Shown here: in pieces, positions 1,867 through 46,262 of the stretch | How positions within the stretch are numbered: the stretch's first letter is position 1 | Layout: every line of letters starts with the position of its first letter | Source of the DNA: Egicoccus sp. AB-alg2 | GTDB taxonomy: Bacteria; Actinomycetota; Nitriliruptoria; Nitriliruptorales; Nitriliruptoraceae | Assembly (NCBI RefSeq): GCF_041821065.1 | Contig: NZ_JBGUAX010000009.1 | Span: forward strand, 1-64,000 | Length of the DNA stretch: 64,000 nucleotides | Direction: 5' to 3' | Position numbers and translations under genes: made by a program | Notes under the pieces: model-generated | Told to the model about the DNA's origin: nothing | The model's database searches: none | Seen by the model: the letters and a program-made list of their open reading frames with translations, nothing else

Positions 1867-4419
<2,553 letters not shown>

Positions 4420-7558: not shown

Positions 7559-9151
7559 TCAGAACTTCTCGCTGGGGACGTAGGCGCCGAACTCGTCGCG
7601 CAGGACGTCGCAGACCTCCTGCAGGGTCGCGCGGCGCCGCAGGGCCTCACGCATCGGCGGCAGCAGGTTGTCGTCGCCCTTGGCCGCCCGGCGGACGTCG
7701 TCGAGTGCCGCGCTCACGCCGGCCTGGTCACGCGTCGACTTCACCTGCTCGATGCGGTCGATCTGGCCGTCACGGATCGCCTCGTCGATGCGCTGCAGTT
7801 CGGGCGCGATCTCCTCGTCGGTCCGGTAGCGGTTGACCCCGACGACGATCTGACGCTCGGCCTCGATGTCGCGAGCGAGGTCGTACGCGGCCCGCTCGAT
7901 CTCCTGCTTCTGGTAGCCCTGCTCGATCGCCGCGACGGCACCGCCCATCTCGTCGATGCGCTGCAGGTAGCCGCGCGCCTCCTCCTCGATGCGGTCGGTC
8001 AGCGACTCGATCAGGTACGAGCCGGCCAGCGGGTCGACCGAGGCCGGCACGTCGGTCTCGTGCGCGATCACCTGCTGGGTGCGAAGCGCGAGGCGGGCCG
8101 ACTTCTCCGTCGGCAGGGCGAGGGCCTCGTCGTAGCTGTTGGTGTGCAGCGACTGGGTGCCGCCCAGGGTGGCGGCGAGCGCCTGGATCGCCACCCGCAC
8201 CAGGTTCACCTCCGGCTGTTGGGCGGTCAGCTGCACGCCGGCCGTCTGCGTGTGGAAGCGCAGCATCTGCGACTTGGGGTCCTTCGCACCGAAGCGGTCG
8301 CGCATGATCGACGCCCACAGCCGGCGGGCGGCGCGGAACTTGGCGATCTCTTCCAGCAGCGTCGAGCGGGCGACGAAGAAGAACGACAGGCGCGGCGCGA
8401 ACGCGTCCACGTCCAGGCCGGCGTCCACGGCAGCCTGGACGTAGGCGATCCCGTCCGCGAGCGTGAAGGCGATCTCCTGGACCGGGGTCGCCCCCGCTTC
8501 GCCCATGTGGTAGCCGGAGATCGAGATCGTGTTGAAGCGCGGCAGGTGCTGGGCGCAGTAGCCGAAGGTGTCGGCGATGATCCGCAGCGACGGCGCGGGC
8601 GGGTAGATGTAGGTGCCGCGGGCGATGTACTCCTTGAGCACGTCGTTCTGGATCGTGCCGCGCAGCTGCTCGGGGGCGACCCCCTGTTCCTCACCGGCGA
8701 TCTGGTACATCAGCAGCAGCAGCGACGCGGGCGCGTTGATCGTCATCGACGTGGACACCTGGTCCAGCGGGATGCCGTCGAAGAGCGCCTTCATGTCCTC
8801 GACGGTGTCGATCGCCACGCCGACCTTGCCCACCTCGCCGTCGGCGATGTCGGCCGAGCTGTCGTAGCCCATCTGCGTGGGCAGGTCGAAGGCGACCGAC
8901 AGGCCGGTCGTGCCCTGCTCGAGCAGGTACTTGTAGCGCCGGTTGGACTCCTCGGCGGTCGACATCCCGGCGTACTGGCGCATCGTCCACAGCCGGCCGC
9001 GGTACATCGTCGGGTAGACGCCGCGGGTGAACGGGTACTCCCCTGCCGCGCCGAGCCGTTCGCCGGCGTCGAAACCGTCGAGGTGCTCCGGGCCGTAGGC
9101 CGTCTCGAAGGGGAACCCGCTGACCGTCGTCGGCTCTTGTCGTTCACCCAT
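7559..9151 (-). CDS. Methylmalonyl-CoA mutase, stand-alone large (catalytic) subunit
   Basis: 530 residues of the acyl-CoA mutase TIM barrel. Substrate residues match methylmalonyl-CoA mutase rather than isobutyryl- or hydroxyisobutyryl-CoA mutases: Tyr in [15 protein letters not shown], Arg in [12 protein letters not shown], and the catalytic His in [12 protein letters not shown]. Also seen: [34 protein letters not shown] and [16 protein letters not shown]. The protein ends at VPSEKF without the cobalamin-binding domain (no DxHxxG), so it must pair with a separate small B12 subunit, which is absent from the window together with epimerase and chaperone genes. It isomerises (R)-methylmalonyl-CoA to succinyl-CoA; the sdh operon upstream and carboxylase at the left edge fit propionate-type carbon flow. 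Confidence 0.93.
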
Positions 9152-9227
9152 CGGATTTCGCTCCAGATCGCACCGGTCCCGACAGGCTATGGCCCGGACC
9201 CCGCTCGGCGGTAGCTCGACACGGTCG

Positions 9228-9386
9228 GGGTATCCCGCGCCGGCGACGGAAACCGCACCGCTCGCCGCCCCGCCATCCGCGCCGCCGACCGGGTTTCCCG
9301 CGCCGGCGACGGAAACCGCACCGCTCGCCGCCCCGCCATCCGCGCCGCCGACCGGGTTTCCCGCGCCGGCGACGGAAACCGCACCG
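9228..9386. repeat. 63-bp tandem repeat, 2.5 copies, with internal near-palindrome
   Basis: Units begin at 9228, 9291 and 9354 (third partial, to about 9386) and are almost identical; only the first differs at its left edge (TAT for TTT). Each unit contains a 24-base near-palindrome, GTTTCC-NN-CGCCGGCG-NN-GGAAAC, followed by a conserved remainder. The array lies in the 329-base gap between sdhB and the mutase gene, past the sdh terminator, so it is in the untranslated leader or promoter region of the mutase. It can be translated in one minus frame as 21-residue repeats, but no start with a ribosome site serves that frame. Confidence 0.9.
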
Positions 9387-9424: not shown

Positions 9425-9453
9425 CGACGCCCCGGCGGGTCGCCGGGGCGTCG
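9425..9453 (-). terminator. Terminator of the sdhCAB operon
   Basis: A perfect 13-bp stem (9425-9437 with 9441-9453, loop GGT) lies 27 bases beyond the sdhB stop on the transcribed strand and before the tandem repeat. Confidence 0.75.
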
Positions 9454-9480: not shown

Positions 9481-10233
9481 TCAGGCGCTGCGGCGCGTGC
9501 GCATCTTGCCCTTGCGGTAGTCCTTGTTCATCCAGGCGATGAAGTCGATGGAGATGCCCTTGGGACAGGCCGCCTCGCACTCGCCCATGTTGGTGCACGA
9601 GCCGAAGTACTGCTCCATCGTGTCGACCATGCCCACCGCCCGCTCGTAGCGCTCGGGCTGCCCCTGCGGCAGCGCGTTGAGGTGGGCGACCTTGGCGGCG
9701 GTGAACAGCTGCGCCGCCCCGTTCGGGCACGCGGCGACACAGGCGCCGCAGGCGATGCACGCGGCCGCGTCCATCGCGAGGTCGGCCGTCTCCTTCGGCA
9801 CCGGGATGAGGTTGCCGTCGGGAGCGGACCCGGTGTCGACCGAGATGTAGCCACCGGCCTCCACGATGTGGTCGAACGCCGAGCGGTCGACGACGAGGTC
9901 CTTCACCACCGGGAAGCCGGCCGCGCGCCACGGCTCGATGACGATCTCGTCGCCGTCGGCGAACTTGCGCATGTGCAGCTGGCAGGTGGCGGTGGCCCGC
10001 TCGGGACCGTGCGCCTGCCCGTTGATCATGAGCCCGCACGTGCCGCAGATGCCCTCGCGGCAGTCGTGGGCGAACTCGATCGGCTCCTCGCCGGCGTTGG
10101 TCAGCTGCTCGTTGACCTGGTCGAGCATCTCCAGGAACGACGCGTCCTCGCTGACGTCGGTCGCCTCGTAGGTCTCGAACCGACCCGGCGCATCCGGCCC
10201 GGTCTGGCGCCAGACTCGTAGCGTGAGATTCAT
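9481..10233 (-). CDS. sdhB: Succinate dehydrogenase iron-sulfur subunit
   Basis: 250 residues. The N-terminal plant-ferredoxin domain carries the [2Fe-2S] ligands in [10 protein letters not shown], and the C-terminal domain carries two cysteine clusters, [15 protein letters not shown] and [14 protein letters not shown], for the [4Fe-4S] and [3Fe-4S] centres. It passes electrons from the SdhA flavin to the membrane quinone. The sequence resembles the B-type enzymes that use a single diheme cytochrome b, consistent with the one membrane subunit in this operon. GAGG lies five bases before the ATG. A 94-base spacer with a small GGGGCG/CGCCCC hairpin (10306-10320) separates it from sdhA. Confidence 0.96.
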
Positions 10234-46029: not shown

Positions 46030-46138
46030 GCGAGTCGTGACGCCCCTGTGTGTTGCGTTCGGAAGAAGTCGCGCTGCGTCCGTGGCGTAATGGCGGTTGC
46101 CGCCCTGTTGGTCACGCGTCCATGTGCCAGCGCGCCCA

Positions 46139-46262
46139 CCCACTCCCTGACGATGGCCAGGTTTCGAGCATGCCGACTGCGGGGGCGAACCGCGCGTCCG
46201 CCCACTCCCTGAGCATGGCCAGGTTCCCGGCGTGGCGACGTCCGGGCCGGACCGCGCGCCAA
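46139..46262. repeat. Imperfect 62-bp tandem repeat
   Basis: Two units start with CCCACTCCCTGA at 46139 and 46201. They share that opening, ATGGCCAGGTT, a variable middle, and ACCGCGCG at the end. Confidence 0.75.

Follow-up and report, generated by a model that had tools for sequence, protein, structure and literature searches.

Helically phased palindromes of Egicoccus and a gene with AbiEi-like and nuclease-like domains: a probable orphan array upstream of a methylmalonyl-CoA mutase gene

Results

The array between sdhB and the mutase gene

A tandem array of near-palindromes (dyads) between sdhB and a methylmalonyl-CoA mutase gene of Egicoccus sp. AB-alg2 is, on balance, best explained as an orphan member of a selfish-looking, helically phased palindrome family that is tied to a gene, here called X, and spread by it. 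The mutase gene itself is probably a bystander of the array. The window, the whole stretch of 64,000 nucleotides that was analysed (contig NZ_JBGUAX010000009.1, positions 1 to 64,000), contains the following features at this locus.

9228-9386, no strand: array of three dyads with a period of 63 bp, an orphan array (sequence, repeat finder, pattern search)
9230-9253, no strand: dyad 1, GTATCCCGCG-CCGG-CGACGGAAAC, GTATCC being one change (pattern search)
9254-9292, no strand: spacer 1, 39 bp (spacer comparison)
9293-9316, no strand: dyad 2, GTTTCCCGCG-CCGG-CGACGGAAAC, exact to the pattern (exact pattern search)
9317-9355, no strand: spacer 2, 39 bp, identical to spacer 1 (spacer comparison)
9356-9379, no strand: dyad 3, identical to dyad 2, exact (exact pattern search)
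7559-9151, minus strand: methylmalonyl-CoA mutase large-subunit-type gene, neighbour (Pfam/NCBIfam)
9481-10233, minus strand: sdhB, upstream neighbour (Pfam/NCBIfam)
9184-9189, minus strand: TAGCCT, downstream of the array and likely the −10 box of the mutase promoter (motif recurrence in relatives)
9426-9452, no strand: GC-rich hairpin after sdhB, terminator-like, outside the array (read from the sequence)

Tandem Repeats Finder returned the array with period 63, 2.5 copies and 98% matches. This confirms the 63-bp repeat with 24-base near-palindromes beside the mutase gene that had been reported in a preliminary description; three dyads of 24 bp, 63 bp apart, are present in the gap. No second near-palindrome pair of comparable quality was found by a de novo pair scan of the whole 64-kb window. 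A further intergenic tandem repeat, with a 62-bp unit, is located at 46130-46260 (2.1 copies, 78% matches, Tandem Repeats Finder). It contains only a weak dyad (CCCTGANSATGGCCAGG), fails the palindrome-pair scan and is possibly a worn array of another type.

The TAGCCT box in the window lies ~35-40 nt ahead of the mutase, on the start codon side. The same motif was found at a similar distance before the mutase gene of four relatives, namely G007, G027 and G022 (loci L037, L038 and L043) and the congener G003 (L122). Because of this recurrence, the window array is probably located upstream of the mutase promoter and outside the leader. The placement in the preliminary description, in the leader or promoter region, is thus retained on the promoter side and lost for the leader, the transcript probably starting downstream of the array as judged from the −10-like box alone. 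Control of the mutase, also suggested there, was not borne out: the genome has such arrays at 11 further sites, next to genes of other kinds, and neither the mutase of G002 nor that of G003 is preceded by such an array, the latter retaining the promoter motif without dyads. Mutase-specific regulation was rejected on account of these other loci and of the relatives.

The region 3′ of sdhB was also compared between relatives. At L043 (G022), four tandem units of ~28 bp (TAGCGATGCGCAACTCGAGATG...), unrelated to the dyads, precede the mutase gene. In G003 (L034), ~5.5 kb separate sdhB from the mutase gene, and this interval contains a long frame that is acidic and repetitive; in G001 (L036), a different insert of ~2 kb lies between the two genes, which are adjacent in G002.

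A dispersed dyad family in two Egicoccus genomes

The genome containing the window (G000) measures 4.84 Mb. An exact dyad pattern occurs in the whole of it only as the last two copies of the window array, with no match for the reversed control. With a degenerate pattern and up to three mismatches permitted, 35 + 32 strand matches were obtained in G000 vs 1 + 1 for the reversed control. A DNA search located arrays like that of the window elsewhere in G000 and in G003, and the search for the unit elsewhere in the genome, as proposed in the preliminary description, was thereby answered: after refinement by hand, the total came to 12 arrays in G000 and seven in G003, all of one dyad type, GTTTCC(GT/CG)CG-N4-CG(AC/CG)GGAAAC, and found without reference to X. 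Arrays consist of 2-5 units. A search of ~85,000 named genomes, from which near relatives may be absent, with a pattern of the exact type gave 38 scattered stretches and no enriched organism.

The 34 spacings between neighbouring dyads in G000 and G003 are 62 bp (16 times), 63 bp (16 times) and 61 bp (twice). Five degenerate dyads (two at L078, two at L079, one at L080) were accepted partly for lying 61-63 bp from the next; when they are left out, 62 bp is found 15 times and 63 bp 14 times (n = 29). Spacers inside one array are 59-100% identical, while those of different arrays are mostly unrelated (mean z 0.68, 171 pairs). Dyad and spacing are therefore common to the loci and spacers were copied only locally. 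Where the preliminary description had considered a unit number varying at random without dyad conservation, the opposite was seen, with dyads and spacing conserved and spacers not. Several orphan arrays sit between convergent genes. Gene context from codon bias was used loosely, since it is unreliable and contradicts the known neighbours at L014a and probably at L080.

Some array sites could be compared with relatives. At an acetyltransferase/response-regulator locus, three dyads 62 bp apart are present in both G000 (L017) and G003 (L020), with different spacers; at the corresponding site of G002 and G001 the matching stretches are separated by a gap of ~50 bp that holds no array. The G003 counterparts of L019 and L079 have no array and that of L015 has one degenerate dyad. 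Six G000 sites (X locus, L017, L015, L019, L079 and window) were checkable in G003: arrays are present at two of them and a remnant at one, while the other three lack them. Neither a clean target-site duplication nor a fixed end of insertion was recognised.

The dyads vary as DNA sites

The 44 distinct dyads of G000 and G003 have GT or CG at positions 7-8 in either half. A clean type can be assigned to either half of 39 dyads, and in 20 of these the halves differ, by which two pairs are broken. Bases are complementary in 22 of the 44 dyads at pair 7-18 and in 23 at pair 8-17, with 0 and 1 compensatory changes respectively, and one-sided changes dominate in the remaining variable pairs. Since compensatory changes are almost absent, the dyads look like DNA sites and not like RNA hairpins; the hairpin alternative of the preliminary description, like a leader element, was rejected on these pairing counts. 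To judge from the sequences, such variation is what would be expected of half-sites that a protein dimer reads. A search of Rfam gave two sub-threshold matches only.

Spacing by helical turns

Across species, the spacings are quantised near 62, 72, 82 and 92 bp (61-63, 71-73, 81-82 and, once, 92 bp). For 19 spacing values, compiled by hand, the mean vector is 0.96 at a period of 10.0-10.3 bp, which was reached by none of 20000 uniform draws. Neighbouring dyads are near whole numbers of helical turns apart. The idea of binding sites phased by whole turns, proposed earlier for the window array, finds support in many unrelated arrays. Three half-dyads in G038 at 40, 30 and 39 bp are outside the quoted spacing classes.

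Gene X and the arrays on its flanks

Two of the arrays of G000 flank gene X, which adjoins kgd. In G010, belonging to another genus, an unbiased search of 0.40 Mb for near-palindrome pairs likewise gave arrays with a distance of 62 bp on both sides of X; the flanking dyad, GTTCCTGGGC-CTGA-GCCCAGGAAC, differs from the G000 type. Homologues of X were searched in 12 genomes (25 matches) and then in 396 genomes of the phylum, and 15 close homologues were examined in 13 genomes (G000, G002, G003, G004 (twice), G006, G007, G009, G010 (twice), G011, G019, G022, G034 and G038). Phased arrays were present at 14 of these 15, usually on both sides, the array of G007 being seen only with a wider loop and some flanks being cut by contig ends; the X of G009 has none by the criterion used. 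No match to X was found in plasmids and phages.

Among distant homologues, none of 31 loci (12 and 19 in two examinations) has an array. Looser pairs, none of which was judged an array, are present at seven of the 19 (L277-L280, L282, L290 and L295), and at L282 the 3′ end of the gene does have a tandem repeat of low complexity whose palindromes lie 76 bp from each other; L262, one of the 12, has a weak pair 66 bp apart. As a control, any phased pair was found in 29 of 490 stretches of 3.9 kb, real orphan arrays included.

In the nine X genes for which both flanks were available, the left and right dyads of the same X share 15.0-19.0 of the 20 arm positions, vs a mean of 8.1 of 20 for dyads of different X genes (197 comparisons), the highest value, 17.0, being that of the G019 X and the second G004 X. 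G004 and G010, with two X genes each, have two different dyads each. In G038, scattered dyads of the form GTTRCCCGCG-N4-CGCGGGYAAC had been found before its X was known, and match the dyads beside that gene, the only array-type X found there. Arrays of the host's X-type dyad are scattered outside the X locus in G000, G003 and G038; no orphan array of the own X type was found in the 0.40 Mb of G010 or the 0.32 Mb of G002 examined. Protein and dyad similarity of 11 X genes did not agree (Mantel r −0.03), which may mean that dyads turn over faster than the protein or that specificity depends on few residues.

A third dyad type of G010 (AGAACCGTGA / ACAACCGTCA), with spacings of 61 and 62, was seen at G010:C1:1598169-1598315, within L208; it has no known matching X and was perhaps left by an X since lost. 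In G040 (L277/L298), a lone perfect palindrome of 30 bp, CAGGATTCCCGCGCCGGCGCGGGAATCCTG, precedes a moderately close X homologue, a possible one-dyad version. In L299 (G011:C124), a second X homologue, moderately close in sequence, has a dyad pair at a distance of ~1 kb, at 3734-3818; the two dyads (GAACACGC...GCGTGTTC) are 63 bp apart.

The predicted X protein

The X protein has ~310 residues and was modelled by AlphaFold with a pLDDT of 87.6. In comparisons of the model, residues 1-197 resemble AbiEi (6y8q; E 6.4e-4, Z 10.0, 4.5 Å over 181 residues), and PADLOC AbiEi models match the N-terminal part of X with E values of 5e-10 and 6e-12. Residues 198-298 resemble 3hrl (Z 12.1, 1.9 Å over 90), the homing endonuclease I-Bth0305I (3r3p; Z 12.0, 2.8 Å over 96) and Vsr (1cw0; Z 9.6). 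The sequence profile match of this C-terminal domain to the EDxHD/Vsr fold reaches an E value of 0.036 only, and DUF559/MTES_1575 models of Pfam are matched by the X of G038, in its C-terminal part, and not by the X of G010. D230, E241, Y242, G244, H248, D257 and R260 are invariant in ten X sequences. The model predicts X to be a fusion of an AbiEi-like module for DNA binding with a homing-endonuclease-like domain of the Vsr/EDxHD type, with putative binding and cutting activities.

According to PMC7319586, AbiEi-family antitoxins bind tandem 23-bp repeats, AbiEi bends DNA, and AbiEi and Rv2827c autoregulate through tandem repeats in their own promoters. The binding of tandem 23-bp repeats is a precedent for X as a putative dyad reader. 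The only array-type X found in G000 contains an in-frame TAG, and in the X of G003 the reading frame is disrupted close to the 3′ end. With X broken in both, neither may be active, although two units of the window are identical.

Orientation and locations of X

Relative to kgd, X runs in opposite directions in G000 and G003, and the alignment breaks in or beside dyads; this inversion could be due to homologous recombination between arrays. Seven of the 15 X loci examined adjoin kgd, X being co-directional with it in G010, G003, G019 and G011 and convergent in G000, G004 and G034. On the X tree, supported branches force a minimum of three changes to account for this pattern, and these could be inversions or re-insertions. 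X was found at five unrelated places: kgd, purD, PucR-like/acyltransferase, alpha-amylase/malQ and rhomboid/GNAT acetyltransferase. No AbiEii-like nucleotidyltransferase partner was found among nine neighbour proteins of five X loci.

Discussion

The mechanism proposed here is suggested by the fold of X, its flanks, the changes of orientation and the empty sites. X would bind at least two dyads that lie on the same face of the helix and would cut in or near an array, after which repair of the break would copy, invert, expand or insert arrays, spreading X together with its sites. The window array would be one such copy, inserted downstream of sdhB and ahead of the mutase promoter. Tentatively, these elements may be a new class of bacterial selfish DNA, in which a single gene of AbiEi module and homing-endonuclease type reads palindrome pairs on the same face, carries a private flanking set, flips or relocates between them and seeds orphan arrays chromosome-wide, the palindromes turning over quickly and the helical spacing rule remaining fixed.

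Several other explanations were weighed. The dyads might be operators or tolerance marks of X, after the autoregulation known for AbiE, with the orphan arrays as decoys or a regulon and no role in mobility. The promoter repeats through which AbiEi and Rv2827c autoregulate (PMC7319586) and the position of arrays upstream of X in most loci agree with this. Arrays are also found at the 3′ end of X, however, and several orphan arrays between convergent genes have no promoter there to control; the array-free sites in relatives and both X orientations imply movement, and the nine neighbour proteins include no AbiEii-like partner. We consider this explanation unlikely.

Ordinary minisatellites, in which slippage yields tandem copies with no protein involved, are less likely still. 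The identity of 59-100% between spacers within arrays and the broken X genes of G000 and G003 would suit them, but not the recurrence of a single dyad type, always at intervals of 61-63 bp, in 12 loci whose spacers are unrelated, nor the quantised spacing across species or the link to one protein clade.

X might also be the movable part of a site-specific inversion switch, flipped between arrays by itself or by a host recombinase (phase variation), with orphan arrays as by-products. The two orientations at kgd and the breakpoints at dyads are what such a switch would produce; the flips seen are between species, though, with none within one, and X has a nuclease fold, no recombinase match having been seen. 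This makes a switch very unlikely.

That the dyads regulate the mutase, or form hairpins in the leader of its transcript, is hardly credible. The position of the array just upstream of the likely mutase promoter would suit regulation; against either role are the other array loci, the array-free mutases of G002 and G003, the likely promoter downstream of the array and the lack of covariation between pairs.

The reading preferred here, a palindrome family spread by X, has parallels among known systems. REP/REPIN sequences with their RAYT (REPtrons) are likewise short, species-specific extragenic palindromes, scattered over the genome and flanking one dedicated nuclease-type gene; in REP/RAYT, a dedicated transposase is flanked by the palindromes and is believed to spread them (PMC3116915, PMC3733652). 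That protein is a Y1 transposase, whereas X combines AbiEi with a Vsr/EDxHD fold. The RAYT-type Y1 (HUH) transposase PF01797 was found in none of 11 genomes, a control search being positive in 6 of 14 known genomes, and membership of REP/RAYT was ruled out for lack of it. The GTAG tag, a feature of REP/RAYT, is absent, as read by eye, at the ends of the array dyads listed with 6-base flanks. REPINs are inverted doublets, whereas asymmetric dyads have the same orientation within an array here (window, L019, L021), direct and helically phased. The X-array system works like REP/RAYT without being a member, its parts being unrelated.

With the type IV toxin-antitoxin system AbiE (AbiEi, Rv2827c), X shares the N-terminal fold, and AbiEi binds tandem long repeats near its own gene, as is proposed for X; X differs by its nuclease domain, by having no AbiEii-like partner among the nine neighbour proteins and by arrays on both sides and far away. 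EDxHD/Vsr homing endonucleases such as I-Bth0305I have the C-terminal fold in common with X, whose gene is set among its likely sites; X differs from them in its AbiEi module for predicted DNA binding and the many tandem sites beside the gene, and no intron or intein context was noticed around it. A palindromic repeat of ~24 bp in a unit of ~62 bp is reminiscent of CRISPR, but spacers within these arrays are copies of one another (59-100%), the repeats vary and arrays have 2-5 units. CRISPR was ruled out by the alike spacers within arrays. Searches of the open-access PMC literature on AbiEi, DUF559, EDxHD and repeat systems that resemble RAYT but use another nuclease gave no account of such an arrangement.

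Among dispersed palindromes of bacteria that have a protein of their own, REP sequences and their RAYT transposases are the best known, and a second, unrelated protein design seems to reach the same arrangement here. If this is true, it would give a function to a branch of actinobacterial AbiEi-plus-nuclease (DUF559-like) proteins, and it would rest on a simple DNA rule, palindromes at whole helical turns. It is also a warning that promoter-side repeats of such a kind need not regulate the adjoining gene.
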